Positions 5,604-30,428 of a DNA stretch of 37,293 nt are shown in pieces. Source of the DNA: Flavobacteriia bacterium. Lineage in GTDB: Bacteria; Bacteroidota; Bacteroidia; Flavobacteriales_D; Crocinitomicaceae. The stretch is taken from assembly GCA_947453545.1 (NCBI GenBank), contig CANGHE010000003.1:1-37293 (forward strand), read 5' to 3'. The notes below the pieces were generated by a model, which had not been told where the DNA came from, searched no databases, and saw nothing but the letters and a program-made list of their open reading frames with translations. Made by a program: the position numbers and the translations under genes. How positions within the stretch are numbered: position 1 is the first letter of the stretch; each line of letters opens with the position of its first letter.

Positions 5604-6863
5604 ATGAAGTACATCAAACTTTTTTCGTCAGCCTTAGTGCTATTTTCATCGGTATTTACTTTTGCTCAAAAGGATACTATACAATATGTAAAAAAGGATA
5701 GCGTTAAAGAAAAATTTTCAATTAGTGGATATTTAGATAGTTATTACTTCACAAATTTAAATCGCCCAACATCTATGGATAATATGGGTAGATCTGGTGT
5801 GGGGAGAGGATTTGATAGAAAAGTAGACCAATTTAATTTAGGTATGGTTCAAACTCAATTTAAGTTTTCTAATGCAAAATCAGAAGCAATGGCTGATTTA
5901 GCTTTTGGACCAAGTGCTCAATATGGTAATTATGGTAATTTACCAAATACTGTTAGTCCTTCTACTGGTTACAAGATTGGCTATGATATTGTATCTGGTA
6001 TCGTTATTAAACAAGCGTACTTCAAATATAACTTTACGGATAAATTTAGCATGACTGCTGGTCAGTTTGGCACGCATATAGGTTATGAGTATATTGATGC
6101 CCCTCTTAATTTTCATTATTCAATCAATCATACATTCAACAGTGGAATCCCTTTTTATCATACTGGTATAAAAGCAAATTACACAATTAATAAAGCATGG
6201 TCTTTAATGGCTGGGGTAGTGAATGGTTTTGATCATTTAGACGATAATAACAGAGCTAAAGGTATTATTGGTCAGGTTGCTTTTACTCCAAAAGATGGGG
6301 TTGCATTATTCTTTAACTACATAACTACAAACGAGGCTAATGCTGACAGTTTAGGTAATACACCAAAAGCAAATTTTACTGTATATGACTTGAATGGTTC
6401 TTGGCAGGTAACAGATAAGTTTATGTTAGGATTTTGGGGTATGATAGGTTCTCAATATGGTGCTGTTGGTGCTCCTGGAGTTTGGACACCAATTGATGGT
6501 ATAACAACTAAAAAAGGCTACTGGGGAGGTGTGAATATTTATACGAACTGGAAATTTAATGATGTGTTTACCTTAGGACTTCGTTCTGAATATTTTGATA
6601 ATAAACAAGGAGTTAGGGGGATTAGAAACTTTGATGCCGTAGCTAACAAGACTATTGGAGCTGATGTGTATACATTTACTTTAACTGGTAATATCGCTTT
6701 GGCTGATGGACATATATTATTAAAACCGGAGGTACGTTTTGATCAATGGTCAAAAGTGAAAGGAATTGGTAATGAAAATAGCCAGCAGTTTTTAGATAAA
6801 GATGGAAAATATTCTAAATCTAACCAAACTACATTAGGTTTAGCTATGATTTATAAATGGTAA
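5604..6863 (+). CDS. Outer-membrane beta-barrel porin (OmpL/BBP2-like)
   Basis: Signal peptide; KFSISGYLDSYYFTNLNRP start; alternating beta-strand pattern; ends in aromatic/basic KW. Confidence 0.8.
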   Translation: MKYIKLFSSALVLFSSVFTFAQKDTIQYVKKDSVKEKFSISGYLDSYYFTNLNRPTSMDNMGRSGVGRGFDRKVDQFNLGMVQTQFKFSNAKSEAMADLAFGPSAQYGNYGNLPNTVSPSTGYKIGYDIVSGIVIKQAYFKYNFTDKFSMTAGQFGTHIGYEYIDAPLNFHYSINHTFNSGIPFYHTGIKANYTINKAWSLMAGVVNGFDHLDDNNRAKGIIGQVAFTPKDGVALFFNYITTNEANADSLGNTPKANFTVYDLNGSWQVTDKFMLGFWGMIGSQYGAVGAPGVWTPIDGITTKKGYWGGVNIYTNWKFNDVFTLGLRSEYFDNKQGVRGIRNFDAVANKTIGADVYTFTLTGNIALADGHILLKPEVRFDQWSKVKGIGNENSQQFLDKDGKYSKSNQTTLGLAMIYKW

Positions 6864-6979: not shown

Positions 6980-9376
6980 ATGAATAAATTATCACTTAAA
7001 AAGTTAAAATTAGCACAGCAGTTGTTGTACACATCCATTGTTATTATGGCTGCATTAACAGTGTTAATAATAGGATACATTACTGTATCATCATTGTCAA
7101 GCACCAATGATCAATATGCTATTCAAGCGAAAGCAAATGCTACTTCTGTAATTGAAAAAATTGACAGAAACTTTTACGAACGTTTTGGAGATGTTCAAGC
7201 TTTTGCTTACAATCGTTTAGCGGTTAAAACTGCTGTTTCGGACACTGTCTCCAATGATGCTCAGAATTTTATTAATACAATGGTAAGTTATTACGTATTG
7301 TATGATTTAATGATGATTACGGATATCAATGGAAGAGTGGTTGCTGCTAATACTGTTGATAAAACAGGAAAATTTGTGAATACACGTGATTTAATCGGAA
7401 AAAGCTTTGCTAACGAAGATTGGTTCCGTACGTGTATTTCTGGTTCAGGACCAGAAGGTGGGGCATGGTTCTCTGATTTTATGGTGAACAAAATATCTGC
7501 AACAGTTAACGGAAACAATGGTTGGGGTATGGCTTTTGCTGCTGCAATCAAAGATAATGATGGAAATGTAGTAGGAACATGGTACAACTTTGCAAACTGG
7601 GCAGAAGTTACTCAAGGCATTCGTAAAGAAACGCAAGAAGTATTGAATGAAAACCTTCCAGGAACATTTATGCTAGTAACAAACGCTTCTAATCAAACAA
7701 TTGATGCAGATGAAGATATGTTAGTTAATAATGGAGTTCAAATTTCTGAAGCTGATTTTAATAATGGCTCTAAATTTGATTATAAAGGAAAAACAATCAA
7801 CTCTGAAGATTATATTGTAGGGAAAGCAACTGGTAAAGGGGCTTACATATATAAAGGAAAAGATTGGAATACCTTGACTTTTATACCTAAAGCAAAATTT
7901 AACTTTGATTACTTTGTAAGTAATTTATTAGTATTGTTTGTAGCTGTAATTTTAATTACAATTTTTATATGCTACATTTTTTACCTTTTAGCAAAAAGAA
8001 TATCTGGAAACATCAATAAATTAAAAGCTGACCTAGAGGTACTAGCGTCGGGTAACTTAGTTGAAATAGACGAAGTAAATTCTGAAGATGAAGTTGGTCA
8101 AATGTCTGTTGCTTTGAAAGGTTTAGTGGATGGTTTGAAAGAAAAATCCGAATTTGCTGAAAAAATTGGTTCTGGTGAGTTACAAGCGAATTACCATGCA
8201 TTGAGCAATGAAGATGTATTAGGTTATTCTTTATTAAACATGCGTGAGAATTTAGTTCGTGTTGCTGAGGACGATAAAAAACGTAATTGGACTACAGAAG
8301 GTTTGGCGAAATTCGGAGATATTCTTCGTGGAAATAATGAAGGGATTGAAATTTTAGCAGATAATATTATCTCTGGTTTAGTGAAGTATTTAGATGCTAA
8401 TCAGGGGGCGTTGTTTGTTGTTAATGATGTTAATAAATCAGATGAATACTTAGAGTTAATAGCTTGTTATGCTTGGAATAAGAAAAAGTATTTACACATG
8501 CGTATTGATAAAGGAGAAGGTCTTGTAGGTCAAGCTTGGCAAGAATCAGATACTTTATATATCACGGATGTTCCTGAAGATTTCGTAAACATAACTTCAG
8601 GGTTAGGTGGCGCTACACCTAATGCTTTCTTGATAGTACCATTGACAGTGAATGATGAAACTTTTGGTGTGATTGAAATCGCTTCTTTTAATTTATTTGA
8701 GCAATACCATATTGATTTTGTAAACAAATTAGCAGAAAGTATTGCTTCTACTTTATCTACAGCGAAAACAAACGAGCGCACTAAAATCTTGTTAGAGCAG
8801 TCGCAGCAACAAACGGAAGAAATGCGTGCGCAAGAAGAAGAGATGCGTCAGAATATGGAAGAGATGCAAGCTACGCAAGAAGAGATGGAGCGTAAGGAAG
8901 CTGAAATGAGTCGTATGGTAGAGCAAATGCAGCAACAAGAAGAAGAGATTCGTCAGAATATGGAGGAGATGGTTGCAACGCAAGAAGAGATGGAAAAACA
9001 GACGATGATTAACGCGGAACAAATGGCTGAAATGAAAGGTGTTATGGCTGGAATTGATGCTACTATGGCAACAATCGAATTTAAACCAGATGGTACGATC
9101 ATTACTGCGAACGATAATTTCTTGTCTACAGTTAAGTATACCTTGCCTGAAATTCAAGGAAAACACCACCGCATCTTTGTTCCAGCGGATATTGTAAATT
9201 CATCTGAATATGCTGTTTTTTGGGATAACTTAGCTGCGGGGATACCAGCGCATGCTGAAATTAGACGTATTGATGCACTTGGTAATGAAATAAAATTAAA
9301 TGCAATTTATAGCCCTGTTAAAAATAGTTTTGGCGAAGTTGTAAAAGTTTTAAAATTAGCTACAATCATTGCTTAA
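6980..9376 (+). CDS. Chemoreceptor-like sensor: periplasmic Cache-like domain, HAMP (tandem), GAF, E/Q/M-rich coiled coil, PAS; no MCP signalling hairpin
   Basis: Two TM segments flank a ~300-aa extracytoplasmic domain; HAMP (NINKLKADLEVLASGNL); GAF (DKGEGLVGQAWQE); repeated EEMRQNMEEMQATQEEME; C-terminal Aer-like PAS (TIEFKPDGTIITANDNFLSTVKY...HHRIFV). Confidence 0.88.
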   Translation: MNKLSLKKLKLAQQLLYTSIVIMAALTVLIIGYITVSSLSSTNDQYAIQAKANATSVIEKIDRNFYERFGDVQAFAYNRLAVKTAVSDTVSNDAQNFINTMVSYYVLYDLMMITDINGRVVAANTVDKTGKFVNTRDLIGKSFANEDWFRTCISGSGPEGGAWFSDFMVNKISATVNGNNGWGMAFAAAIKDNDGNVVGTWYNFANWAEVTQGIRKETQEVLNENLPGTFMLVTNASNQTIDADEDMLVNNGVQISEADFNNGSKFDYKGKTINSEDYIVGKATGKGAYIYKGKDWNTLTFIPKAKFNFDYFVSNLLVLFVAVILITIFICYIFYLLAKRISGNINKLKADLEVLASGNLVEIDEVNSEDEVGQMSVALKGLVDGLKEKSEFAEKIGSGELQANYHALSNEDVLGYSLLNMRENLVRVAEDDKKRNWTTEGLAKFGDILRGNNEGIEILADNIISGLVKYLDANQGALFVVNDVNKSDEYLELIACYAWNKKKYLHMRIDKGEGLVGQAWQESDTLYITDVPEDFVNITSGLGGATPNAFLIVPLTVNDETFGVIEIASFNLFEQYHIDFVNKLAESIASTLSTAKTNERTKILLEQSQQQTEEMRAQEEEMRQNMEEMQATQEEMERKEAEMSRMVEQMQQQEEEIRQNMEEMVATQEEMEKQTMINAEQMAEMKGVMAGIDATMATIEFKPDGTIITANDNFLSTVKYTLPEIQGKHHRIFVPADIVNSSEYAVFWDNLAAGIPAHAEIRRIDALGNEIKLNAIYSPVKNSFGEVVKVLKLATIIA

Positions 9377-9395: not shown

Positions 9396-9425
9396 AGCCG
9401 TTCATACAAATGAACGGCTTTTTTT
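9396..9425 (+). terminator. Rho-independent terminator after the receptor gene
   Basis: agccgttcat-acaa-atgaacggct followed by a T run. Confidence 0.85.
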
Positions 9426-9604: not shown

Positions 9605-10426
9605 ATGGAGATAGAAATTGATATTAAAGAAATTAGAACATTAGTAACTGCAATTAAAACAAACTACGGTTTTGATTTTGGAGAATATGCATTATCCTCT
9701 TTCAAAAGAAGACTTTCAAGAATTTTGGAAGTGTATAAATTTGAGAACATGCAGAAGTTAACTGATAGGGTGGCTACGGATAAACCTTTCTATGAATTGT
9801 TCTTAAAAGAGGTAACAGTAAACACAACCGAAATGTTTCGTGATCCTTCGTTTTGGAAAAAAATGAAAGAATCTGTTTTTCCTTTGGTTAAAGATTTTCC
9901 TGTTATTCGTATTTGGCACTCTGCTTGCTCTTCTGGTGAGGAGGTATATTCTATGGCTATAGCATTGAAGGAAGCAGGTTTGTATGATAAAGCTCGCATA
10001 TTTGCTAGTGATATTAATGAAGATGTGATAGCAAAAGCGTTAGAAGGAAAATATCCTGCACGTAATATGGAATTGAATGGCTTTAACTATGAGAAATATG
10101 AAGGTCCCAAAAAGTTGAATAATTATTTTAAAACAAATGGTGATTATGCATACATGGATCTTGATTTGTTGAAAAATGTAACATTCAAAAAATTTGACCT
10201 TGTACAAGGAGATCAATTTCAGCGATTTGATATTATATTATGTAGAAATGTATTAATTTATTTTAATTTACCATTACAAGATCAAGTCATAGCTAAGTTT
10301 GCTAAATGTATGTCATTAGGTGGTTTTTTAGCGGTCGGATCTAAAGAAACAATTGCGTGGTGTAAATCAGCAGAGAATTTCAGTACATTTTCTTTGGAAG
10401 AAAAAATTTATCAGAAAAAAATATAA
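9605..10426 (+). CDS. cheR: CheR-type protein-glutamate O-methyltransferase
   Basis: FLKEVTVNTTEMFRDPSFW, IRIWHSACSSGEEVYSMAI, FASDINEDVI, FDIILCRNVLIYF. Confidence 0.95.
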   Translation: MEIEIDIKEIRTLVTAIKTNYGFDFGEYALSSFKRRLSRILEVYKFENMQKLTDRVATDKPFYELFLKEVTVNTTEMFRDPSFWKKMKESVFPLVKDFPVIRIWHSACSSGEEVYSMAIALKEAGLYDKARIFASDINEDVIAKALEGKYPARNMELNGFNYEKYEGPKKLNNYFKTNGDYAYMDLDLLKNVTFKKFDLVQGDQFQRFDIILCRNVLIYFNLPLQDQVIAKFAKCMSLGGFLAVGSKETIAWCKSAENFSTFSLEEKIYQKKI

Positions 10427-10429
10427 TAA

Positions 10430-11002
10430 GTGAGTATGAATAACTTCAAAGCGGTTGTAATTGGTGGGTCGGCAGGAAGTTTTCCTTTAGTTGTTAAGAT
10501 ATTATCTTCATTACCAAAAGATTATCCATTTCCTGTGTTTTTGGCACTACATAGATTAAAGCATATTCGTAATGGTTTCGTTGAAGCGTTGAGTATTAAA
10601 TCGAATATTCCAGTGATTGAGCCACATGATAAACAACAAATAAAACCTGGAATTGCTTATTTGGCTCCATCTAATTACCATATGTATGTTGAATTGGGAA
10701 ACACTATTGCCTTATCTACTGAAGAGATGGTGAAGTATTCACGTCCTTCAATAGATTTGACATTTGATACAGCTTCCTACGTTTATAAAGACAAAATGGT
10801 TGGTGTAATAGTTTCTGGAGCAAATACTGATGGCGCTGATGGAATTCGTAAATCGAAAGAAAGAGGTGCTTATACAATTGCACAAAATCCTGACGAAGCA
10901 ACGATAAAAACTATGCCCGATGCAGCGATTAAAGCTGCTCAGATGGATCATATTTTAACAATTGATGAAATTTGTAAGTTCCTAGTTTCTATTAAACCTT
11001 GA
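10430..11002 (+). CDS. cheB: CheB-type methylesterase catalytic domain without receiver domain
   Basis: Catalytic motifs IGGSAGS, ALHRLKH and VSGANTDGADGI; only 190 aa, with no N-terminal REC domain. Confidence 0.92.
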   Translation: MSMNNFKAVVIGGSAGSFPLVVKILSSLPKDYPFPVFLALHRLKHIRNGFVEALSIKSNIPVIEPHDKQQIKPGIAYLAPSNYHMYVELGNTIALSTEEMVKYSRPSIDLTFDTASYVYKDKMVGVIVSGANTDGADGIRKSKERGAYTIAQNPDEATIKTMPDAAIKAAQMDHILTIDEICKFLVSIKP

Positions 11003-11007
11003 TTTAA

Positions 11008-11982
11008 ATGAATCAGGAAACTACATATACAATCGATGAATTAGCGCAACGTGATGGAAGAACACTTCCTAATATTTGGGTTGGTTACAAAGGATTGATT
11101 TATGATGTTACTTCTTCAGAATTGTTTAAGGATGGAAAGCATTATTTTCATGATGCTGGTAAAGATTTAACACTTGAAATGCAAGATGCTCCGCACATGG
11201 ATGATGTAATGAATCGTTTTCAAGTGGTAGGCAGATTACTTCAAAGGTCTTCTAATGTCGATTTACAAGTTAAAACTATAGTTGAAAAGTCGAATAAACT
11301 AGTTTTCATAGAGAAACATCAAGTATCATCTACTTGTTACCGATTTTTCTTTGAATGCTCTCGTGAAAGTCTTAATATTGAATATGTTGGTCAATATATT
11401 TCATTATTGATTACGGTGAAAGGAGTTGAATATAAACGTTCGTATTCAATTGCTTCTATACAAGGTAATATTATCGAATTTTTGATTCAGTTGAAGCCAA
11501 ATGGAGTTGTTTCTAATTACCTAATCTATAGCTTGTCCAAAAAGGATGTGATTGAATTTAAAGGTCCATTCGGAGGTGTGCCTAAATCAGTTTTACTTAA
11601 TAAAAATGTGAAATTAATTTGTACTGACGTAGGGATTGCTCCAATAAGACATATAATTCATCATCAGATTGAGCAGGATAATAACGCGAGACATATTGAA
11701 TTAATTTATGGTGCTCATAATTATTCAGAATTAATTTACCACGACGAATGGTCATTATTGAATAAAATGAAATCCAATTTCAATTATTCTCCTTACGTTA
11801 CAAAAGAGGAAAATCTATTTTGTAGTAGTGGTTATTTCACAAATGATAGTAATTTTATTTCTTCTGCCTCAGAAATATTTTATGTAATAGTTGGATGGGA
11901 AAGAATGGTGACTAAAACGAAAGAAATATTAAAACATAAGGGAATTGATAAGTCGTACATATACGTACAAATGTATAACTAG
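11008..11982 (+). CDS. Cytochrome-b5-like heme/steroid-binding domain fused to ferredoxin-NAD(P)+ reductase-like domain
   Basis: N-term YTIDELAQRDGRTLPNIWVGYKGLIYDVTSSELFKDGKHYFHDAGKDLT; C-term YKRSYSIAS, VIEFKGPFGG, LICTDVGIAPIRHII. Confidence 0.8.
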   Translation: MNQETTYTIDELAQRDGRTLPNIWVGYKGLIYDVTSSELFKDGKHYFHDAGKDLTLEMQDAPHMDDVMNRFQVVGRLLQRSSNVDLQVKTIVEKSNKLVFIEKHQVSSTCYRFFFECSRESLNIEYVGQYISLLITVKGVEYKRSYSIASIQGNIIEFLIQLKPNGVVSNYLIYSLSKKDVIEFKGPFGGVPKSVLLNKNVKLICTDVGIAPIRHIIHHQIEQDNNARHIELIYGAHNYSELIYHDEWSLLNKMKSNFNYSPYVTKEENLFCSSGYFTNDSNFISSASEIFYVIVGWERMVTKTKEILKHKGIDKSYIYVQMYN

Positions 11983-12058: not shown

Positions 12059-12541
12059 ATGAATTCGCAAAGGATTGAAAATATTTTAGAAAAGATTAAA
12101 TCAGCAACTTCTATTAAAGATTTAGCGAAAGATTTTTTATGGTCTGTTGCTAAGGAATTAGATGCATCACAAGGTGCGTTTTTTATTGCCAAAGAAAGAG
12201 AGAATATTCACTATCTTCAGTTTATAGCTGGTTATGCATATCATTTACCTGAATCTGAGATAATTGAATTTGAATTTGGAGAAGGCTTGTCAGGACAAGT
12301 TGCGAAAGAGAATAAACTTATCAATATACAAACGGTGCCTGATGGGTACATCAAAATATTATCAGGATTAGGTAACGCTAGTCCTACAGCTATGATTATT
12401 TTTCCAGTGAAGAATAATAATCAAGTAGTTGGAGTAGTCGAATTGGCTTCTTTTAAAAAATTCACAGAAGAAGATGAACAATTCATCAAAGAACTTTCTA
12501 TTAAATTAGAAGATGCTTTGGCGCAACAAATAACAAATTAA
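12059..12541 (+). CDS. Stand-alone GAF domain protein
   Basis: SQGAFFIAKE...FGEGLSGQVAKENKLINIQTVPDGYIKILSGLGNASPTAMIIFPV...VVGVVELASFKKF; closely resembles the GAF domains of the 6980 and 12553 ORFs. Confidence 0.9.
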   Translation: MNSQRIENILEKIKSATSIKDLAKDFLWSVAKELDASQGAFFIAKERENIHYLQFIAGYAYHLPESEIIEFEFGEGLSGQVAKENKLINIQTVPDGYIKILSGLGNASPTAMIIFPVKNNNQVVGVVELASFKKFTEEDEQFIKELSIKLEDALAQQITN

Positions 12542-12552
12542 TAAAGTATTGT

Positions 12553-15186
12553 ATGACATCTGCAAGAAATAAACACAAACAAATAGTATTGATGAAATAT
12601 TTCTTAAAATCCTTTTTTATAGGACTTGGAATATTGATTGCTATTTGGATTTTATTATTGATTAATTCAAAACAATCTGTATCGATCGATGGTTTGTCAA
12701 AATTACATCAAGAGGACGGATATTTGTATTTCATTGATTTAGTTCCATTTATTTTGGGAATATATTCATTGGTAATAGGCTTGAAGTTTTATAGAAAAAT
12801 TTCAATTTTAGATCAGACAGTAAAAGTTCAAACAGAAACGATACAAAAAACAGCTTTGTTTGCTGAAGAAATCGGTAAGGGTGAATTTAATTCTGAATTT
12901 GAACCAAATGGTGAAAAAGATATCCTTGGAAAGGCATTACTTGAAATGCGCAAGAGTCTGCTTGAAGCTAACAAAAATGAAGTTGAACGAAATTGGATTA
13001 TTTCTGGAGTTGCTGAAGTTTCTGAAATTTTAAGAAGAAATACTGAACTTATCCAATTGAGTGAGGAAGTTGTTGCTTATTTAACACGAAAAATAGGTGC
13101 AATTCAAGGTGCATTTTACATAGTAAATGATGATAACGAAGACGATGTTTACATCGAGATGGTTGGCAGTTACGCATATAATAAAAAGAAGTATTTAAGT
13201 GCTAAATTTCGTTTTGGTCAAGGTTTAGTAGGGCAGGCAGCTATTGAACGCGATACCGTATTTAGAACTGAAATTCCTGATGAATATGTGACTATCACTT
13301 CGGGATTATTAGGAGATAAAAAACCTTCATGTATATTAATTGTTCCGTTAATTACGAACGAAGCAGTTTATGGTGCTGTTGAATTAGCTGGTTTTGATAA
13401 ATTCACTGAATTACAAGTTCGTTTTATTCAAGAGTTAAGTGATATTGTTGCTCGTACGATTTTCAATGTGAAAGTAAATGAGAAGACTGTTCGTTTGTTG
13501 AATGAATCTCAAAAAATGAGTTCCGAGTTGAGTGAACAATCAGAACAATTGATGGAGAATGCGCGCCAGATGCAGGAAAATCAAGAAATGATTGAGCGTA
13601 CAAACAAGGAATTGGAGGTTCAAATACAAGAGGTTAACAAACAACAGGAACGTACTCAGGTACTTTTAGAGAATGCGTCAGAGATTATCAATATCTATGA
13701 TGAAGATGGTGCTGTAAAATATGCTAGTCCTTCTATTAATAACATTTTAGGTTATAATCCGTCAGAACTTATTGGTAGTATGGAGACTGACCGTGTACAT
13801 CCAAAAGGAAAAGAAACGGTTCGTAAATTGTTTGAGGATTTAAAATATAATCCTGGAAATGTATATACAGCTCAATATACTTACCTTAAGCCAGATGGGA
13901 GCCGTACATGGGTAGAAACAACAGGTAGAAACTTAGTTGACAACCCATCAATAAATGGGATTTTGTTTAATATCCGCGATATTACAGAACGTAAAAAAGC
14001 TGAGAAAGAACAACGAGAGAGAGCGAAAATGCAAGCCTTGTCTGAAAACTCGTTAGATATTATCTTGCGTTTTGACTTACAAGGATTAATTAGCTATGTC
14101 AATCCAGCGATTGAAAAATATACAGGTACTTCATCTGATCAGTTTAGAGCTGCTCATATTGACGCTTTACCATTAGACGAAATGATTGTTTCTCGTTGGA
14201 AAGAAATTATTGAAGAATTAAAGGAAAAAGGGAGTCATATTAGTACTGAAATGGAATTCATTGATTTGAATGGTGCTAAATTATTCATGGAAGTCAACGC
14301 ATTACCTGAATCTGGTGAAGATGGTGAACTTGAGTCTATTCTGATGATTTTACATGATATTTCAGAAGCGAAAGAAGCTGAACATAAAATCAAAGAAGCG
14401 AATCAAAAAGTACAGGATAGTATTAATTACGCGAAACGTATTCAGAATTCAATATTACCAAAGGAAATAGTATTAAATGATGTTTTCCCAAATTCATTTA
14501 TGATGTTTAGACCAAAAGACATCGTAAGTGGGGATTTTCCATTTATTGTTCAAAAGGAAGGATTCATTTACTTTGCTGCTGCAGATTGCACTGGACATGG
14601 TGTCCCAGGAGCATTACTTTCGGTAATTGGATCGTTAATTTTAAATGAAATCATTACCTACGAAACACCAACACCTTCTGTAATGTTGGATAAGTTACAT
14701 AGTTCTATGGTTAAAACGTTACGTCAAGGTCAAGAAGGAGGGGAGAACGAACGTGATGGTATGGATGTTGGTATGTGTCGTTTAAATTTGGAGACGGGTG
14801 AATTCTGTTTCTCTGGTGCGCATAGACCTTTGTATATTGTTCGACATGACCAAAAAGCAGATGAAGAATTAGAAGAATTAAAAGGCGATAAATATCCTAT
14901 CGGAGGTGTTCAATACAGAGGTAGAGATGTGTTTACAAATTTTGAAACTGTTTTACAAAAAGGGGATAGAGTATATGTTTGTTCTGATGGATTCCCAGAT
15001 CAATTTGGTGGACCAAATGCGGATGATTTGAAGAAATTTGGACCAAAGCGCATACGTCAAATTTTAGTAGAAAATAAAGATAAGTCTATTGCAGATGTAA
15101 ATGTAGCCTTACAGGAGGCGTTTGACGCATGGCAAGGACCACACAAACAAATGGATGACGTATTGTTTATTGGGATAGAATACTAA
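12553..15186 (+). CDS. Membrane-anchored GAF-PAS-PAS-SpoIIE (PP2C-type) serine/threonine phosphatase, SiaA-like role
   Basis: Two TM segments; GAF (FRFGQGLVGQAA); two PAS domains; PPM motifs FRPKDIVSGDFPF, AAADCTGHGVPGALLSVIG, YVCSDGFPDQFGG, MDDVLFIGIEY. Confidence 0.93.
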   Translation: MTSARNKHKQIVLMKYFLKSFFIGLGILIAIWILLLINSKQSVSIDGLSKLHQEDGYLYFIDLVPFILGIYSLVIGLKFYRKISILDQTVKVQTETIQKTALFAEEIGKGEFNSEFEPNGEKDILGKALLEMRKSLLEANKNEVERNWIISGVAEVSEILRRNTELIQLSEEVVAYLTRKIGAIQGAFYIVNDDNEDDVYIEMVGSYAYNKKKYLSAKFRFGQGLVGQAAIERDTVFRTEIPDEYVTITSGLLGDKKPSCILIVPLITNEAVYGAVELAGFDKFTELQVRFIQELSDIVARTIFNVKVNEKTVRLLNESQKMSSELSEQSEQLMENARQMQENQEMIERTNKELEVQIQEVNKQQERTQVLLENASEIINIYDEDGAVKYASPSINNILGYNPSELIGSMETDRVHPKGKETVRKLFEDLKYNPGNVYTAQYTYLKPDGSRTWVETTGRNLVDNPSINGILFNIRDITERKKAEKEQRERAKMQALSENSLDIILRFDLQGLISYVNPAIEKYTGTSSDQFRAAHIDALPLDEMIVSRWKEIIEELKEKGSHISTEMEFIDLNGAKLFMEVNALPESGEDGELESILMILHDISEAKEAEHKIKEANQKVQDSINYAKRIQNSILPKEIVLNDVFPNSFMMFRPKDIVSGDFPFIVQKEGFIYFAAADCTGHGVPGALLSVIGSLILNEIITYETPTPSVMLDKLHSSMVKTLRQGQEGGENERDGMDVGMCRLNLETGEFCFSGAHRPLYIVRHDQKADEELEELKGDKYPIGGVQYRGRDVFTNFETVLQKGDRVYVCSDGFPDQFGGPNADDLKKFGPKRIRQILVENKDKSIADVNVALQEAFDAWQGPHKQMDDVLFIGIEY

Positions 15187-15254: not shown

Positions 15255-15872
15255 ATGGAAGAGTTAAAAGGAGCAGGACTTGAAAATAAGTCTGATTATA
15301 TGAAATTCGTAGTGAATTTTCATAGAATGATGGTAGATAAAAAACTTACCCTAGCCTATGAAGGTGAAGTAACTCAAGAGATTACTAAAGCTTTTACATC
15401 TATGACAGAGAAAAATCTGGAGAAAGTAGAAGAGGATGGTAAAATCAAAAAGAAAGTTTATCACGTAATGGTAGAATGTTTACAAAACATTGCTAAACAT
15501 GCGGATGATGATACAGCTACTGCATCGGATAACCTAGAAGATGGACTTGCTAAAACAGGTATTTTCTTAATTGGTAGCGATGAAAAAGAATATTTCATTA
15601 CTTCTGGTAATGGTATTGCAAATGAAAACATTGCTGCATTGAAAGAAATGATTGATAATATCAATTCTTTGGATAAGGATGGTTTGAAAGAACTACACAA
15701 ATTCAAAATGCGTGAAACAGCAATTTCTGAAAAAGGGGGTGCTGGTTTAGGTTTCATAGACATTGCTCGTAAAACGGGTAACCCATTGGAATATCATTTT
15801 GAGCCAATCGATGCTGATAACTCTTTTTTCTTATTGAAATCAAGAGTAAGTAGAGTATCAGGTGAAGAATAA
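15255..15872 (+). CDS. SiaB-family GHKL-type protein kinase (DUF6272-like)
   Basis: N-box VYHVMVECLQNIAKHA; G-box EKGGAGLGFIDIARKTG; between the phosphatase and the DUF1987 gene. Confidence 0.9.
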   Translation: MEELKGAGLENKSDYMKFVVNFHRMMVDKKLTLAYEGEVTQEITKAFTSMTEKNLEKVEEDGKIKKKVYHVMVECLQNIAKHADDDTATASDNLEDGLAKTGIFLIGSDEKEYFITSGNGIANENIAALKEMIDNINSLDKDGLKELHKFKMRETAISEKGGAGLGFIDIARKTGNPLEYHFEPIDADNSFFLLKSRVSRVSGEE

Positions 15873-15914: not shown

Positions 15915-16289
15915 ATGGAACCATTAATTATTAATAAAACAGACGATACACCTGCAATTCATTTAGATAAAGCGGCAGGTAAATTTGAATTTTCAGGAAA
16001 ATCATTACCTGAAGACGTATCAACATTCTATGCACCAGTTTTTGCTTGGATTGCTGAATATGGTGATAATGCTAATGATGCTGCTACGTTTGTTTTTAAA
16101 ATGACGTATTTTAATACAGCTTCTTCAAAAATAATTTTGGATATATTAATGCGTTTAGAAGAATTGCATGAGGATGGAAAAAACATTACTGTTGAATGGC
16201 ATTACGAAGAAGATGATGAAGATATGCAAGAAGCAGGAGAAGAATATTCTGAAATAGTTGAAGTACCATTCAAGTTTATTGAAGATTAA
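15915..16289 (+). CDS. SiaC-family (DUF1987) regulatory phosphoprotein
   Basis: 124 aa; LIINKTDDTPAIHLDKAAGKFEFSGKSLPED; MTYFNTASSKIILDIL with Thr at position 68; acidic C-terminus. Confidence 0.92.
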   Translation: MEPLIINKTDDTPAIHLDKAAGKFEFSGKSLPEDVSTFYAPVFAWIAEYGDNANDAATFVFKMTYFNTASSKIILDILMRLEELHEDGKNITVEWHYEEDDEDMQEAGEEYSEIVEVPFKFIED

Positions 16290-16382: not shown

Positions 16383-19300
16383 ATGTCTGAGGAAATATTA
16401 AAAGCCCTGATGCAATTGTTCGCTATTATCGCTAAACAAGATGATGGTGCTTCGCAAAGCGAACGAAAATTTGTGGAAGAGTTCTTGTTTTTTCAATTAA
16501 GCGAAGACTTGGTTAAAGAGTATATGGCTCTTTATGATGAATTTGTTGGTCCAGTAGAATTAGATGAAGAAGGGAATCCAGTTAAAAAACTTACCTCTGT
16601 AAAGGATTCGGTTAGAACATTGGGTATCTGTAAGAAAATTAATAAAACACTTACTCAGAAACAAAAAGTAATTGTACTTGTCAGATTATTAGAGTTGATA
16701 GCAGCTGATCGTTCTTTCTCGGAACAACGAATGGCTATTATCCACACAGTATCTGAAGTATTTAAATTTGAGGAGAGAGAATTTCAAGCAATAGTTGACT
16801 TCTGTGTTAAAGAGACGGAAGAATTGCGTGAAGTGCCTGAAATTATGGTTATTAATAGTGAAGAGGAAGAGTGGAATTATTCTTGTAAACATATTGCCTC
16901 TCATTTAGATGGAAGTATAGTCATTTTGAAAGTCGTTTCTGAAGACTTATATTTCTTGAAATATACGGGGAAAAGTGATATTTTCTTAAATGGCTTACCT
17001 GTCAATCCTAATCGTATGTACTTGTTTGCTACAGGGAGTACAATCAAAGTACCTGGAGGTAAACCAGTTTATTATAGCGACGTTGTAGCGAACTTTATGG
17101 CTGATGGTGATGGTGTAAAATTATCATTCCATGCAGATAATATTAGTTTCCAGTTCCCTAATGGAGCGATGGGATTACAAGATATCAATATTTCAGAAGG
17201 CTCAGGAAAATTGATAGGGTTAATGGGAGCAAGTGGTGCTGGTAAGACAACTCTGTTGAATGCACTATCGGGTATTGAAGAGGTAACAAGTGGAGAAGTA
17301 TTAATTAATGGTATTAATATTAACACTGAAAAAGATAAAGTAAAAGGTCTAATTGGTTACATTCCTCAAGATGATTTGTTAATTGAGGAATTAACAGTAT
17401 TTGAAAACCTTTACTATAATGCTAAACTTTGTTTTAAAGATTTGACAGATGAAGAGCTAACAGAGTTAGTTATGAAAGTGTTGAATAACCTTGGATTGGC
17501 TGAGCGTAAAGATTTAAAAGTTGGTAACCCATTAGCAAAAACAATATCTGGTGGTCAACGTAAACGGTTGAACATTGGTTTAGAGTTGATTCGTGAACCA
17601 GCTGTACTTTTTGTTGATGAACCAACCTCTGGTTTATCATCTAGAGACTCTGAGAATGTAATGGATTTATTACGTGAGTTGACTTTGAAAGGAAAGTTAA
17701 TTTTCGTAGTGATTCACCAACCTTCATCGGATATATATAAAATGTTCGATAAGATTATTTTCTTGGATGTCGGCGGTTATCAGATCTATTATGGTAATCC
17801 AGTAGAGGCTGTAGTTTATTTTAAACAAGCAGATAAACAAGCTAATGCGGAACAAGGGCAATGTCTAGTCTGTGGTAATGTAAATCCAGAATTGATATTC
17901 AATATTATTGAGGCTAAAATTGTCGATGATTATGGTAATTACACCAAAAACAGAAAAGTTTCACCATTACAATGGAGACAGTTATATGAAAAAACGAATT
18001 CATACGAACGTTCTGAAGATGTAAAGGAAGTACCACAATTTTCGTTAAGCATTCCTTCTTGGTTTAAACAATCTAAAATATTTGCTACACGAGATTTATT
18101 TTCAAAGTTGAGTAACAAACAATATTTGTGGATCAATCTATTAGAAGCTCCTGTATTAGCCTTCGTATTATCATACATAATTCGTTATGTAGAAATACCA
18201 GGAGCTGATTATATTTTTAGAGATAATGAGAATATTCCCGCATTTATTTTTATGAGCATTATTGTTATGTTGTTCATTGGATTAACCGTAAGTGCTGAAG
18301 AAATATTTAGAGATCAAAAAATTCTGAAACGTGAAAAATTTCTAAACTTAAGTAAGTCAAGTTATTTAGTTTCTAAAATGACTATTTTATTTACACTTTC
18401 TGCAATTCAATCTTTACTATTTGTTGTAATTGGAAATAGCATAGTTGGTATTCATGGCATGTATTGGGATTATTGGTGGATGCTATTTTCCGTTTCGTGT
18501 TTTGCTAACTTGTTAGGTTTGAATATTTCGGCAAGTTTCAATTCAGCGGTAACTATTTATATTTTGATTCCACTTATTGTTATTCCACAAATGATTTTAG
18601 GTGGTGCAATGTTTAGTTTTGATAAACTAAATCGTTCTATAGGAGGAGGTGAAGATGTTCCTGCAATTGCTGAAGTAATGGTCTCTCGTTGGGCATTTGA
18701 AGGTTTGATGGTAAATCAGTTTATGAACAATCCATTTGAAAAAGAAATCTTTGATCTTGAGAAAAAAGAGAGTATGGCTTCTTTTAAACAAGCTTATTAC
18801 ATTCCTAAATTACAAGAGTTAGTAGATGAAACGATAGAGTTACAATCTCAAAAAGGCGATTCAATTAAATTCTTGATTGAAGACAAACTGAAAACAATTT
18901 CTAATGAATTAGTATTGGAGAAAGGAAGAGTTAAAATGGTATCATTTGAAGGAATAGAGAACTTAACTCCATCCAAATTTAATGATAATGTTGCTGAAAA
19001 TACTAAGACTATTTTAACAAATCTATTAGATCATTATTCAGAAATCTTTAATGCTATCAATGGTAAGAAATTATTGATTTTACAAAAGATGCAAGATACG
19101 CCTGAAAAAGCAAATGCATATATTGAGGCTAAAGAAGATTATTTGAATGATTATTTAAATGAGTTGGTTACTAAATCAGTTGAGAAAAATAAAATCATCA
19201 TAAAAGACAATTATTTAATTCAGAAAAAAGATCCAATTTTTATGGATGCTGATACAGAAGGTGGATTTAGAACTCATTTCTTTTCTCCGAATAAAAGTTT

Positions 19301-19439
19301 CTTTGGCAGTTTGTATAGTACTTATGGATTTAACATTTCGGTGATTTGGATTTTTTCTATCTTGTTATATATCTCATTATACTACGATGGATTTAAAAAA
19401 GTGATGGACTTTGTTACGAGTTTGAAAAAAAAGAAGTAA
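16383..19439 (+). CDS. ABCG/White-type ABC transporter (ATPase plus ABC-2 permease) with N-terminal TerB-like and FHA-like regions
   Basis: Walker A GASGAGKTT; signature SGGQRKRLNIGLELI; Walker B VLFVDEPTSGL; C-terminal TM region; acidic helical N-terminus (AIIAKQDDGASQSERKFVEEF; ELIAADRSFSEQ); beta-rich linker (SDIFLNGLPVNPNRMYLFATGSTIKVPGGKPVYYSD). Confidence 0.88.
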   Translation: MSEEILKALMQLFAIIAKQDDGASQSERKFVEEFLFFQLSEDLVKEYMALYDEFVGPVELDEEGNPVKKLTSVKDSVRTLGICKKINKTLTQKQKVIVLVRLLELIAADRSFSEQRMAIIHTVSEVFKFEEREFQAIVDFCVKETEELREVPEIMVINSEEEEWNYSCKHIASHLDGSIVILKVVSEDLYFLKYTGKSDIFLNGLPVNPNRMYLFATGSTIKVPGGKPVYYSDVVANFMADGDGVKLSFHADNISFQFPNGAMGLQDINISEGSGKLIGLMGASGAGKTTLLNALSGIEEVTSGEVLINGININTEKDKVKGLIGYIPQDDLLIEELTVFENLYYNAKLCFKDLTDEELTELVMKVLNNLGLAERKDLKVGNPLAKTISGGQRKRLNIGLELIREPAVLFVDEPTSGLSSRDSENVMDLLRELTLKGKLIFVVIHQPSSDIYKMFDKIIFLDVGGYQIYYGNPVEAVVYFKQADKQANAEQGQCLVCGNVNPELIFNIIEAKIVDDYGNYTKNRKVSPLQWRQLYEKTNSYERSEDVKEVPQFSLSIPSWFKQSKIFATRDLFSKLSNKQYLWINLLEAPVLAFVLSYIIRYVEIPGADYIFRDNENIPAFIFMSIIVMLFIGLTVSAEEIFRDQKILKREKFLNLSKSSYLVSKMTILFTLSAIQSLLFVVIGNSIVGIHGMYWDYWWMLFSVSCFANLLGLNISASFNSAVTIYILIPLIVIPQMILGGAMFSFDKLNRSIGGGEDVPAIAEVMVSRWAFEGLMVNQFMNNPFEKEIFDLEKKESMASFKQAYYIPKLQELVDETIELQSQKGDSIKFLIEDKLKTISNELVLEKGRVKMVSFEGIENLTPSKFNDNVAENTKTILTNLLDHYSEIFNAINGKKLLILQKMQDTPEKANAYIEAKEDYLNDYLNELVTKSVEKNKIIIKDNYLIQKKDPIFMDADTEGGFRTHFFSPNKSFFGSLYSTYGFNISVIWIFSILLYISLYYDGFKKVMDFVTSLKKKK

Positions 19440-19457: not shown

Positions 19458-22400
19458 ATGAAATATAGTATTTCAATAGGTAAGGTTTTGTCAAGCAAAA
19501 AGTTATTTGTTGGAATGTTATTATTGTTTTTTCTTCAATTCAATAATTTATTCGGACAGTGTATACCTACAATTGAGTTTAATACCACTACAGGAACACT
19601 TAAAGGATGTGCACCATTTTCGGTTTTATTTATAGATCCAAATCCTTCCGTTTCTAGAACTTGGGATTTTGGTGATGGTAAGCCAACGTCAACATCAACG
19701 ACACCATTTCATATTTTTGATAGTGGAGTACTTGGTGATACAACCTATACGGTTACAATGACGAAGAATTGTAACGGTGGTGCAGCAACGCAAGTAGTTG
19801 TAACTGTTTATGCGAGACCTAAAGTAAATTTTAAAGTAGATACTTCTTCTGTATGTGCTATAAATGATCAAGCAAAGTTCACAAACCTTTCACAATCGGG
19901 TACATATAATTGGGACTTTGGTGACAACACATCATCAATTCAAAAAAATCCAATTAAAACGTATAGTGTTGGTGGTGTCTATGATGTCCAATTGACTGTA
20001 ACTAATACGAAAGGGTGTGAGGAATCTAAAACAATGAGTAAATTAATGACTGTGAATTCACTTCCAAGTCCTGATTTTGTTTTAGATAATTATTCTGGAT
20101 GCGCCCCTCTACCTGTTACGATTACTAATACTACTGATGTTTCAGCAGTAAATATAAAAAAATGGGAATGGTCATTAGATAATGCTACAGCAATTGATAC
20201 TACGATTACTCCTGCTACAATTCAATATATTGTGCCAGGAACTAAACAAATATCACTTACGGTTACTAGTATTTTAGGGTGTAAAAGTACCACGTCCAAT
20301 ATTGTTAATGTAATAACGTCACCGAGTTCAGATTTTTTAATCAATCCTTTGATAATTTGCACAAGTGATTCTGCGCTGGTATCATATAATGGTGCTGCTG
20401 GTACAAATGCAACATATAATTGGAATTTTAATGGGGGTGTATCTAAATCGAATAGTACAAAAGGGCCACATTGGGTAAATTGGGATAAAGGAGGTATAAA
20501 GACAATTGATTTAACCATCACGGATAGTACATGTTTATCAAATACTTCAAAGCAAATCACAGTAATGGTGAGTCCAATTATAACACTCGCTTCAACTTTT
20601 GATACCATTTGTACTGGTGAAGAGATTACTTTTACTACGACTCCTGAATCTTTAGTAGATTATAAATATTATAAAAACGGTAGTCTTATACAATCGGGCA
20701 CTGATAATTTGTACACATCGAGTTTAATTAACGATGGTGATGTATTTTATGTTGTTGGTTATGATGTAAAAGGATGTTCATCGAAAAAAAGTGATAATAA
20801 ACCTATCAAGGTGAAAGTAAAGCCAACTGTTTCGCTTTTATATGATCAATTAGATACGATAATTTGTAAGAATGACCCCGTCGTTTTTACTGGTAATCCC
20901 TCTAACTATAAGCAATATACCTTTTTTAATTTTAGTGAATCACTTCAAAGTGGATTATCTTCTACTTTATTAACATCTTCATTAGAAGATGGAGATTCTA
21001 TTTTTGTTGAAGCGACTAATTTGAATGGATGTAGAAAAACTTCGAGTAATGCATATGTAATGCATGTAATTCCTAAGTTACCAAAACCTGTTGTGAACTG
21101 TTCAAATTCAACAACAAGTCAAATTGCTTTTGCTTGGGATACCATTCCAGGAGCAATCGGATATGAAGTCAGTATTAATGGTGGGATATTTCAATCTCCC
21201 TCTAATGGAAGTTTAAGTTATAAACATATTTTGAGTGGTGTCAATTCAGGTGATACAGCTAAAATAGTTGTCCGAGCTATTGGTGAGTCAGGTTGTGGTA
21301 CTAGTTTGGTTTCTGATGAAAAGGCATGTAGTGCTGTATTTTGTAATCCAATAAAATTTAATTATAAAGGTTATGATACAATTTGTAAAGGAAAATCTGT
21401 ATTATTAAATTTAAGTAATTTAAATTCTTCAAGTTATTCAGTTGCTTGGAATGGAGGTATCGCTAATTTGGATACAACATACAGAATTTCACCTACAAAC
21501 GATATTGATGTACATGCAATTTTAATTGACTCTTTAACTTTAGCGACTTGCCCACCACAAGATGTAGTATTTAAGATTAAAGTAAATCAAATACCTACAG
21601 TGACTTTAACTTCTAGTCAGCCTACTACAAGCTGTGATGGAGTTGGTACTATTCTTACTGCGCTTCCTTCTAGTTATGAGAAATATACATTTTATAATGG
21701 GAACGCTATAATTCAGAATAATTGGAAGAACAGTGTTAGTTTAAAGAAGATAAAAAATGCAATTCCTTTAAAAGTTGTTGCCACAGAGAAAGGTTGTACT
21801 TCTACGTCTAATATTATTGTGAATAATGTAATAAAACCGTTAGAACAGCCTGTAGTTAATTGTGGTACTTCTAGTACATCTTCAATCGAATTTAAGTGGG
21901 ATCAGGTTGCAGGTGCAATTGGTTATCAAGTAAGTATTGATGGTGGAGCATGGATAACCCCAACATCAGGAAATTCAGGATTAAAACATGTGTTAAATGG
22001 TTTAAATCCGGGGACTGCTGCATACATATCAGTTAAAGCTTTAGGATCAACAATATGCGGTAATTCTCAAATTTCACTTCAATCAAGTTGTTTTACTTCT
22101 CCATGTACTGCGATATCATTTAATACTCAAAATAATTTAAGCATTTGTGAGGGGGCTAGTGTTGATGTGAATATTTCATCTATATCTATTCCAAATTATT
22201 TAGCTTCATTCAATAGGGTTAATTATAGTAAGACACTTGTAAAAACAATCAAACCTACAAAAGATACTGTGGTTATCGTAACTGTAAAGAATCAAAGTGA
22301 ATTGAATTGTCCTTTTAGTTCAAAATTTGTTAGAATTGAAGTGATTAAACAACCGAATGTAACATTGTCTATAGTTCCAAACATTAATTGTTCTAATGAT

Positions 22401-25400
22401 TCTATTAATTTAATTGCTTCACCAGTTGATTATGATTTATATAAATTTTATAATGGTTCCGCTTTAATAAGTTCAGGTTACCAAAATTTTTATAAATCCA
22501 ATAATATTCGTAATGGGTCATTATTAAAAGTTGTTGCCCGTAATGGAAATTGTATAGATACTTCAAATGTTGTTGCTATTAGTATTGATGATCCTTTAGA
22601 ACGACCAATTATTAATTCTGGAAATATAACTGATTCAACCATTGAATTTGTTTGGGATTCTGTTCCGAAAGCAACAGGATATATGATAAGTATTGATGGC
22701 AGTCCTTATATAACACCTTCTAGCGGTATAACTGGTAGATCTCATGTTATAACTGGATTATTAATGAATGAAATTAAAATAGCAAAAGTAATAGCGCTTG
22801 GAAATGGCGCATGTGGTAATAGTTTAGAGTCTGATACAATACATAGGCATACAACAGATAATATTGATTCTGTTTGTACTGCTGTAAAATATGACGTTAC
22901 ATATCATACGTCAATTTGTGATGGAAATAATATTCAATTAAGAGTCACCAATATAAACAATTCAACTAGTGTTATCTCTTGGGATAATCAAGTTGAAGAT
23001 ACTGTTACATCTTATATACTAACTCCATCATTTACTGATACAGTAGTTGTGAAAATTCGTAGAACAGATGAACCATTTTGTCCTGCAGTTAAAAAATTGA
23101 TTAGGGTAGTAGTAAATCCAAAACCATTTGCAACTATTTCAAGTTCAATAAATAACGATAGTATTTGTGAACAAGATGCTGTTACCTTTACGGTATTACC
23201 AACAGGTTTTTCTAACTATTTATTTAAGAATGGTTCTAACATATTACAAACATCAAATAGTAATGAATATGTAATTAATCATATAAATCAATCTGTTCAG
23301 TTAGAAGTAGTTGTTACTGATGATATAGGTTGTACTGGTAATAGTGCTATTTTTCCTTTGGTAATGGTTCCAAAACCAGTTGTGACAATTACAAGTAATG
23401 CGGTTAATTCAGGTATATGTGCTGGTTCTGATTTACAAATAAATGCAACACCAACTAATTTTGCAACTTATAAGTTTTATGACAATGGTATTGAAGTTCA
23501 GAGTGGTTCTAATAAACAATATGTTCAATCAGCGATATCAAAACCATACTTAATAACAGCTAATGCAATTCATTCTTTCGGATGTATTGGTAATATTACT
23601 TCACCACTTAATATAAAATTATTTTCATTACCAGTTGTTACGTTAGTAACTTCCGATGCTGATAATAGTATATGTGATGGAGATAATATTACGTTTACAG
23701 CTTCACCTGCAAAAATGGCAAGTTATAATTTTTATGAAGGCGCTATAAGTGTTCAAAATACAAATTCACAAAACAAAATTTATGTAGGATTAAACATACC
23801 AAAAACACTTTATGTGATTGCAACTGATACAAATACTTGTGTAAGTGTTGCTTCTAATAGTGTCTCGGTTGTAGTTAATCCAATCCCTTCTATGTCAAGT
23901 TCATCCATACAAATTATTTGTGGAGGGAATGAAGTAAATATACCACTTACATCTGTAGTAAAATCAAACTATAATTGGATAGCAAATGATAATCCTAAAA
24001 TTATTGGTGAATCAACCAATCTTCAAAATAGCAATCTATTAAAAGACTCTTTAAAAAGCACCTCTATTTTACAGGAATTAGTAAATTATTTAGTGACCCC
24101 TACTTCATTAGCAGGTTGTGTAGGTCCTTCGCAAAATGTTCAAGTAAAAGTTAATCCAGTTCCACAAATAAATAATAAAGTTGATACTATATGTAGTGGA
24201 AGTGCCTTTAATTTCACACCAATTAACAATCAGTTAAATAATATTATTCCTAACGGAACTAAATATACTTGGACTAATCCAACAGAATCTTTACCAGGTA
24301 TATTGTCAGGTATGTCAGCACAAGCAAATTTGCAAGCTACAATTTCTCAAACTATAAATAATTCGAATAATAGATCAGGCCAACTGATTTATACCGTGAC
24401 TCCTAAATCAGGAACCTCGGGTACGTGCACGGGAAAATCATTTTTTTATACTGTAAATGTTGATGCAGTGCCAACTATTCCAGATTTTATTACTGACTCA
24501 TTATGTAGTGGAGAACATTTTCTTAAAACACCTATAAATGGTGTTCCGAACTCTTCAACAATTGTTCCAACTGGTACAGTTTATACTTGGTCAACTCCAA
24601 CAAGTATTCCTAATGGTGCTATAACAGGTGCAAATAATGAACTTGTTGGAAAAAATTCCGTTTCCGATACATTATACAATGTAACAACTAATTTGGCACA
24701 AACATTTTACTTGGTGACTCCACGTTCTACGATATGTAATGGTGCATCATTTAAAATTCCAATTGTTGTAAAGCCAAGACCAGTGGTTAATTCTGTTTTA
24801 ATAAAGAGTCAGTGTAGTAATTTAGATGTATTAACAAAAATTGAGAGTAATATAAATGCAACTTATGAATGGCATGCTATTGATAATAGTTTTGTATCAG
24901 GAGAATCAACTCAAATACAGCGTATGGATAGTGTAAATGATATTTTGATAAATCATTCTAATGTTGTACAGCAAGTTATTTATTCGATCATTCCAACATC
25001 AGCTTATGGTTGTGTAGGTAATGATACTTTATTAACAGTTAATGTCAATCCTGTTCCAACGATTGCTAATATTCATAAGATTTTGTGCGATCAAGATTCT
25101 TTGATTGTCAATCCTAGTGTTAGTGATATAGTACCATTGAATACTAAGTATACATGGAATGTGCCAATAGTAAATCCTAAAGATTCTATATTGGGCTATA
25201 TTGCACAAAGTATACCAGGTAATTTAATAAGACAAAAATTATCTACTAAGACTATTTCAGGTACTTTAAAATATACAGTAACACCTATTTCTGGGGATAT
25301 TGGATTTTGTAGTGGATTACCTTTTGATGTCAATGTTGATATTCATCCAATACCTAATCCAACGATAAAATCTGATGTTTTAGGTTTATGTAAGGGAGAG

Positions 25401-26099: not shown

Positions 26100-27052
26100 T
26101 GGCGAAAAAGCATATGAATATTATTATGTATGTGTTATACGCATTGTTACCAATGTGGTGTGCTTTTTCTTCTTATGCTCAACAGGAGCCTATGTATACT
26201 CAAAATAATTTTGATAGATTGGTATTTAATCCTGCTTATGCTGGTAGTTCTGGTTGGATAGTTACATCTTTAAAACATAGGAGTCAATTTATTGGTATTG
26301 ATGGCGCTCCTTCTACACAAATGGTTACTATACACGCTCCCTGGCAAATTAAATCCATGGGCTTTGGTGGTAAAATAATTAATGATCATCTTGGGGCAAC
26401 AGGACAATTTAATGCCACAGCAATTTATGCCTATCATTTAGGGTTAGGAAAGGGAAAGTTATCAGTTGGTATTGAAGGAGGGATTTTTAGTCAAACCATT
26501 GATTTTTCAACCTTGTATAAAATAGATCCAATTGATAAAGCTATTCCTACCGGAAAATCATCTGTGATTAAACCAGATGCGTCTTTTGGTTTACAATTTC
26601 AAGCCAGGGATTATTTTGTTGGATTTTCAATCGTTCATTTATTTTCCGATAATTTAAATTTTACAAATACAGATAGATCTATTGTTGGACAACTCAATAA
26701 ACATTATTTCTTATCCGGTGGATATGTTTATGATTTAAAAAATGAGATTTCAGTACAACCGTGTTTTTTACTTAAAAAAGTCGCAGGTGCTCCTATGCAA
26801 GTTGACTTGTACACAAATGTTATTTATAAAGATAAATACACTTTAGGTATTGGCTATAGGACTGGTGATGCATTGACTTTTGTTGCGAAGGTAAATATAA
26901 CTGATGCAATAAGAGTTTCGTATTCTTATGACTTCAGAATTTCTAGTGTTGCTAATTATTCATCTTCTGCCCAAGAGTTTATGATTCGATATGGAATAAA
27001 GCTTTTACCTCCTCAACAGATTAAAGAAATTAATCCGAGATACTATTTTTAA
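26096..27052 (+). CDS. PorP/SprF family type IX secretion-associated outer-membrane protein
   Basis: QQEPMYTQNNFDRLVFNPAYAGSSG; overlaps the adhesin stop by 4 nt. Confidence 0.94.
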   Translation: MMAKKHMNIIMYVLYALLPMWCAFSSYAQQEPMYTQNNFDRLVFNPAYAGSSGWIVTSLKHRSQFIGIDGAPSTQMVTIHAPWQIKSMGFGGKIINDHLGATGQFNATAIYAYHLGLGKGKLSVGIEGGIFSQTIDFSTLYKIDPIDKAIPTGKSSVIKPDASFGLQFQARDYFVGFSIVHLFSDNLNFTNTDRSIVGQLNKHYFLSGGYVYDLKNEISVQPCFLLKKVAGAPMQVDLYTNVIYKDKYTLGIGYRTGDALTFVAKVNITDAIRVSYSYDFRISSVANYSSSAQEFMIRYGIKLLPPQQIKEINPRYYF

Positions 27053-27054
27053 TT

Positions 27055-29865: not shown

Positions 29866-29948
29866 GTGATTTTGCTTATTATTTAGTAAAATCATTTGTT
29901 ATTAAAAATAGAAGAATTAATTTAGCTACCAATAAATAGAATTTTTAT

Positions 29949-30410
29949 ATGAATAGTAAAATGAGAAAAATTACCTCAATTTTAAATTTTCGAAAACAAT
30001 TACTTGGTTTAGGTTTTGTTTTAGTGGCTGGAATTGCAAATGCTCAATGTAGTTCAGATGCGTTTATGGACAATTGTTCAAGTGCATTAGATGATTTTAA
30101 TTTTATTAAATCATTTGAATATGCTAATCCTAAAGGAGGTGCTAAAAATGAGTATAGTTACGTTTTTTCAAAGGGATCAACTTATAGAATTGTTGTATGT
30201 GATGAGAATATTGCAGGTAACAAAATGGTGATTTCTTTATATGATCGTAATCACAAGTTGATTGCTTCAAATTTTGACAAAGCTTCTAAAAAAGTATTCC
30301 CAGCATTAACGTATCCTTGTTCTGCTACAGGAGTTTATTACATTGAATATTCTTTTCAAGGGGATAAAGCTAAATGTGGTATTAACATCTTAGGTTTTAC
30401 AAAAAATTAA
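29949..30410 (+). CDS. Small secreted hypothetical protein with several Cys residues
   Basis: N-terminal signal peptide (LLGLGFVLVAGIANAQ|CSS); good codon pattern; plus-strand gene directly after the OmpA gene. Confidence 0.75.
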   Translation: MNSKMRKITSILNFRKQLLGLGFVLVAGIANAQCSSDAFMDNCSSALDDFNFIKSFEYANPKGGAKNEYSYVFSKGSTYRIVVCDENIAGNKMVISLYDRNHKLIASNFDKASKKVFPALTYPCSATGVYYIEYSFQGDKAKCGINILGFTKN

Positions 30411-30428
30411 TTTAGTCAATTAGTAACG

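Follow-up and report, generated by a model that had tools for sequence, protein, structure and literature searches.

A possible CheA-independent methylation-adaptation module joining CheR and CheB to a SiaABC-type partner switch in Bacteroidota

What do CheR and CheB modify when the receptor-like protein encoded beside them has no MCP signalling domain? The question is raised by a locus of a Flavobacteriia bacterium (Crocinitomicaceae), contained in a 37,293-nucleotide stretch of contig CANGHE010000003.1 (assembly GCA_947453545.1), hereafter the window. A preliminary description of its receptor-like gene, made from the letters alone, had pictured a chemoreceptor-like protein in which a GAF/coiled-coil/PAS tail replaces the MCP domain, and had argued that both the CheR/CheB substrate and the output partner would be non-canonical.

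A receptor without an MCP signalling domain

The sensor half of the protein is MCP-like, as had been described, on the combined evidence of Pfam (weak in the window, clearer in orthologs and relatives), hydropathy, AlphaFold2 and Foldseek. Membrane segments are indicated by hydropathy at about residues 18-36 and 312-338. The AlphaFold2 model runs from a transmembrane helix through a periplasmic domain, a second transmembrane segment, HAMP helices and GAF to a helix at about 575-695 and a PAS at 697-796; at pLDDT 80 and pTM 0.44 the model can be trusted for the single domains but not for how they are arranged. HAMP (residues 336-387) falls under the Pfam cut-off in the window receptor (E 6.6e-4) and passes it in a 79% identical ortholog (E 4.2e-6). 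No Cache domain was detected in the window receptor at default Pfam thresholds; laxer thresholds returned matches in relatives only, where dCache_1 is weak (E 2.5e-4 in the same ortholog, E 8e-6 in a Cache-HAMP-histidine-kinase relative). By Foldseek the sensor domain resembles those of KinD, PctA and DctB, and the GAF is also matched.

The terminal domain is the Aer-type PAS of the preliminary description. PAS_3 covers residues 707-792 (E 2e-6, above cut-off), Foldseek pairs the domain with PAS folds of NifL (a flavin PAS) and E. coli Aer, and within the genus it is most similar to the PAS of true MCPs. The window PAS (9000-9370) reads KLNAIY at a point where both orthologs read VWLNAIY, so that a tryptophan is lost; the C-terminal DIT motif is altered too, and these changes might affect cofactor binding or signalling. 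Between sensor and PAS the MCP signalling domain is missing: a Pfam search of the receptor for MCPsignal (PF00015), predicted to be negative, gave zero matches, as did a regular expression for the hairpin tip.

The tail that stands in its place is not unique. At least 12 proteins of the same genome (G000) share the GAF-coil, and full-length orthologs of 79% identity and the same architecture occur in two genomes of the genus (G005 and G009). Nor does a one-off domain replacement describe it. In G010, a genome of the genus, a relative (L076) joins a Cache-HAMP of 41% identity to PAS and a true MCP domain, and at L075:5967-7982 the same sensor is mounted on a histidine kinase (HisKA), its third output in the genus; the sensor has thus been shuffled among outputs. 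Ahead of the Cache receptor lies a BBP2 porin gene, in the window (5604-6863, receptor of GAF-coil type) as in G010 (L076:4557-5768, receptor of true MCP type), which suggests that porin and sensor form a conserved pair. On contig C14 of G000 (L066 and L067) several coil-PAS proteins are clustered with another cheR, and there is a TAG in frame within one of the matched stretches.

Table 1. Features of the receptor gene and the following operon (positions in the window)
Feature	Position	Strand	Details
Receptor-like protein	6980..9376	+	798 aa, ATG start; TM - dCache-like - TM - HAMP(s) - GAF - coiled coil - PAS
GAF domain	8345..8755	+	aa 456-592; Pfam GAF_2 E 1.5e-13, AlphaFold2
Signalling-helix-like coiled coil	8756..9022	+	aa 593-681; NERT motif aa 598-601
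Putative CheR/CheB site 1	8858..8875	+	E627-E628-M-Q-A-T; heptad b/c
Putative CheR/CheB site 2	8963..8980	+	E662-E663-M-V-A-T; heptad b/c
C-terminal PAS domain	9068..9370	+	aa 697-797; Pfam, AlphaFold2, Foldseek
Intrinsic terminator	9396..9425	+	10-bp stem and T run, 3' of the receptor gene and ahead of cheR
CheR methyltransferase	9605..10426	+	273 aa; PF01739 E 2e-40
CheB methylesterase domain, no receiver	10430..11002	+	PF01339 E 1e-46
Cytochrome b5/ferredoxin-reductase-like protein	11008..11982	+	Pfam; outside conserved operon elsewhere
Stand-alone GAF protein	12059..12541	+	operon member
SiaA-like protein	12553..15186	+	membrane segment - HAMP2-like - GAF - coil - PAS - PAS - SpoIIE/PP2C phosphatase; coil motif lost
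SiaB-family protein kinase (DUF6272)	15255..15872	+	NF038262 170.8 bits, over cut-off
SiaC-family phosphoprotein	15915..16289	+	PF09345 E 8e-42; T68 conserved
TerB-ABC ATPase-ABC2 permease	16383..19439	+	conserved operon end

The EExxAT motif of the post-GAF coil

The helix after the GAF had been taken for a mere coiled coil; it holds the sequence EExxAT. A unit of the form EEExRQNMEEMxATQEEM occurs in it twice, QEEEMRQNMEEMQATQEEMER being followed 35 residues (five heptads) later by QEEEIRQNMEEMVATQEEMEK, and in the best register the EE pairs occupy heptad positions b and c. In the published consensus for MCP methylation the methyl group is usually placed on the second glutamate of the pair (PMC1079850), and the window coil fits this consensus with two exact copies of EExxAT. 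A true MCP of a sister genome (L076) carries SSMEEMTANIQQN in its signalling domain, in the same MEEM frame as the receptor coil. A pair of small residues, which precedes EE in some versions of the MCP consensus, is absent from the window coil. The position of the helix between GAF and PAS and its NERT motif agree with the S-helix, a coil with an ERT signature between two signalling domains (PMC1592074); across the wider family, as represented by a 73-coil alignment, ERT is only partly retained.

Is the motif more than a by-product of composition? In a coil so rich in glutamate EE pairs alone come cheaply, and an A-T with free x does not. An alignment of 18 GAF-coil proteins places the EExxAT stretch among the most conserved parts. 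More than 550 relatives came out of a search of GTDB genomes, and those in Cytophagales, Bacteroidales and Flavobacteriales ranked highest. In a non-redundant set of 73 coils, less than 75% identical to one another and aligned at the adjoining QEEExRQN, 65 keep EExxA[ST]: both glutamates are invariant (100%), the third position is L or M, the fourth is free (most commonly Q, 53%), and A and T follow in 95% and 93%, with drift at positions past +21. The strict DNA pattern QN[MIL]EEMxAT matched G000 only among 396 genomes of the phylum, because it excludes EEL; a relaxed pattern added three genomes, all CheR-positive and too few for a separate test.

The cheR-cheB-siaABC operon and its distribution

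Downstream of the receptor lie cheR and cheB, as had been noted, and an intrinsic terminator precedes cheR. Equivalent terminators stand at both orthologous loci (L062 and L061). The terminator makes it probable that the receptor gene is transcribed as a unit of its own, and it may be expressed apart from cheR. The window CheR aligns over most of its length with the solved CheR 5ftw, and CheB, whose gene starts after a gap of 3 bp, retains the catalytic Ser/His/Asp in an alignment to the CheB structure 3sft. The cytochrome b5/ferredoxin-reductase fusion that lies between cheB and the GAF gene in the window is reduced to a cytochrome b5-like ORF of 80 aa in G005 and G009, and in operons of other lineages this place is empty. 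The SiaABC set is complete in the window, with a PP2C-type SiaA, a SiaB kinase and a SiaC, the SiaB family model scoring above its cut-off and the NCBIfam matches of SiaA and SiaC below their equivalog cut-offs; SiaC, when aligned to 6kko, a solved structure of its family, keeps the threonine equivalent to P. aeruginosa T68, and by eye the PP2C and kinase motifs appear complete. No GGDEF domain (SiaD-type diguanylate cyclase) was matched among the window proteins scanned. Directly 3' of TerB/ABC follow, at 19458-31331, a 2213-aa protein and then PorP/SprF and an OmpA-type protein, surroundings of the type IX secretion kind.

CheR was found in all 50 coil-bearing genomes searched, as against 251 of 396 in a phylum-wide draw (Fisher 9e-10, kinship uncorrected), the 50 having been chosen through a pattern beside the motif and being phylogenetically non-independent. 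Seventeen of these 50 have no CheW, and MCPsignal is missing from the very same genomes, whereas five CheW-positive controls possess it. Marivirga atlantica SM1354 and Fulvivirga sp. M361 are cultured species of this kind, with neither MCP nor CheW. In every one of the 17 a stand-alone CheR is encoded within an operon of the order cheR - cheB (no receiver) - GAF - SiaA-like PP2C - SiaB-like kinase - SiaC, usually with TerB/ABC next; operon and coil thus occur independently of MCPs and CheW. In a tree the operon CheRs form a clade separate from the CheRs of the che operon of the genus and from CheB-CheR fusions (support 100/99), with the CheR of G015 (L042), a genome that has its own CheW/MCP system, at the base on a long branch. 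Across 22 distinct operons, the window and other loci together, EEMxAT is carried by the SiaA-like phosphatase in 15, by the neighbouring receptor alone in five (window, L062, L099, L100 and L160) and by neither in two (L187 and L189). EExxA[ST] is absent from related HAMP proteins of same-order genomes without a clear stand-alone CheR; most of these proteins are visibly fused to a SpoIIE phosphatase, some of the loci being incomplete.

CheW is likewise absent from G000, a 74%-complete MAG, where absence proves nothing: its close relatives G004, G005 and G009 carry a canonical che operon with CheW and MCP genes, and in the genus of the window the target of CheR and CheB could be shared with that system. 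The forecast of a non-canonical substrate survives in part. The carrier protein is very probably unusual, given that operon and coil occur together in 17 genomes that have no CheW or MCP, but the methyl-accepting sequence itself, EExxAT, looks canonical. The output partner, for its part, is very probably non-canonical, the neighbours in these genomes being a SiaA/SiaB/SiaC partner switch.

A possible methylation-adaptation module

Based on these comparisons, we think it rather probable that the locus encodes a CheA-independent methylation-adaptation module in which CheR and CheB reversibly methylate a signalling helix and so tune SiaABC partner switching. A signal perceived by the dCache sensor would pass through TM2, HAMP and GAF into a parallel coiled coil. 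Within each EExxAT the second glutamate (E628 and E663) would be methylated by the dedicated CheR, as in MCP methylation helices, and demethylated by the receiver-less CheB, which would tune the coil's signalling state. From the receptor coil the output would pass to the homologous HAMP-GAF-coil of the SiaA-type PP2C phosphatase, which itself carries the putative methyl-accepting motif in most lineages. In P. aeruginosa SiaA and SiaB set the phosphorylation of SiaC at T68 (PMC7647112), and here they would do likewise, in a partner switch that would control a downstream effector. The sequences themselves show the domain make-up, the motif and its conservation, the operon, the regular company of CheR and the independence from MCPs and CheW; we infer methylation of the motif, an interaction of receptor and SiaA and the identity of the effector; direct receptor-SiaA contact is our guess, as is the effector, possibly the TerB/ABC transporter or a surface behaviour.

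Could the receptor be a chemoreceptor after all, working through CheA and CheW in arrays with true MCPs, or a decaying one that has shed its MCP domain? In Cache-HAMP and PAS it closely resembles the true MCPs of the genus, yet either form of this explanation is highly improbable. We rejected membership of a CheA array on the absence of the hairpin tip, and a degenerate MCP on the architecture kept by the orthologs in two species and the 12 or more paralogs; the design is moreover conserved across orders, MCP-less genomes included. Improbable, in our judgement, is the proposal that the coil serves as an ordinary signalling helix of constitutive kind, whose EExxAT arises from structural needs, CheR and CheB acting elsewhere, on canonical MCPs where these are present. 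The retention of CheR, CheB and motif in 17 genomes without MCP or CheW, the separate clade of the operon CheR and the absence of the motif from related proteins where no stand-alone CheR exists all speak against it, for all that the heptads are Glu-rich and the sister genomes possess canonical MCPs and CheW.

A different view accepts that the coil is methylated by CheR and CheB and assigns the receptors other outputs (a second messenger, a histidine kinase, the gliding apparatus), SiaABC being a parallel target of the same enzymes. This we consider unlikely. In its favour, 12 or more proteins of G000 have the motif while a single siaA-type operon was seen there, many coil proteins are encoded far from SiaA, and the terminator separates receptor and cheR. 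However, a receptor adjoins cheR-siaABC in the window, L062, L099, L100, L139, L152, L157, L160, L174, L180 and L182, the HAMP-GAF-coil is common to receptor and SiaA at about 37% identity, and the receptor keeps the motif where SiaA has lost its own.

For a module acting through SiaABC, which we prefer, the closest precedent is RsbK-RsbM-RsbY of Bacillus cereus, compared here by description. There the S-helix behind the RsbK GAF domain is methylated by RsbM, which represses a partner switch driven by a PP2C phosphatase (PMC4574943); a signalling helix of this sort controlled by methylation is therefore established. Both systems combine a methyltransferase acting, here putatively, on a post-HAMP-GAF helix with a non-MCP membrane sensor and a PP2C partner-switch output. 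RsbK, however, belongs to the CHASE3 hybrid histidine kinases and has the RsbY REC as its target, whereas the window receptor has a PAS and no kinase domain; RsbM lacks a cognate methylesterase, whereas the window has a linked cheB; and the output there is RsbVW/SigB, here SiaABC, with a phosphatase that often carries the site itself. SiaABCD of Pseudomonas aeruginosa (PMC7647112) shares the PP2C phosphatase, the kinase and a SiaC with T68, but the SiaA described here has GAF, coil and PAS before the phosphatase and CheR and CheB in its operon. With MCPs the window receptor shares the Cache-TM-HAMP sensor, EExxA[ST] sites and cheR/cheB neighbours; unlike them, it has no hairpin or CheW/CheA contact site, and its sites lie in a post-GAF coil. 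There are also CheB-CheR fusions that continue through a PAS into a histidine kinase. Theirs is a single large protein, with a CheR outside the operon-CheR clade and, beside the CheR domain, a coil with repeats such as NEELQATNEELLAANEELQST. Heptad repeats of this kind were seen in the fusions of L039, L040, L049 and L050, and may be built-in methylation substrates.

The individual pieces are thus known. Their combination, CheR and CheB with an EExxAT signalling helix and SiaABC, independent of CheA, was not found in the open-licence papers searched, nor was a CheR/CheB-SiaABC link in Bacteroidota (CheR with PP2C, SiaC or partner switching).

What would such a module mean? That Bacteroidota possess a complete methylation-adaptation system free of CheA, CheW and MCPs, in which dedicated CheR and CheB write and erase methyl esters on EExxAT signalling helices, found both in a large receptor family and in SiaA itself, and so provide adaptation of a Ser/Thr partner switch, is a wider claim that could equally prove right or wrong. 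The comparison of related genomes suggests that many Bacteroidota tune a non-chemotaxis pathway by chemotaxis-style methylation. CheR/CheB adaptation is usually regarded as a property of chemoreceptor arrays. If the model is true, glutamate-methylation adaptation would be a portable module, with CheR and CheB kept where CheW and MCPs are missing and the site housed in other receptors and in a phosphatase, which would suggest a role for the stand-alone cheR and cheB genes of such Bacteroidota.
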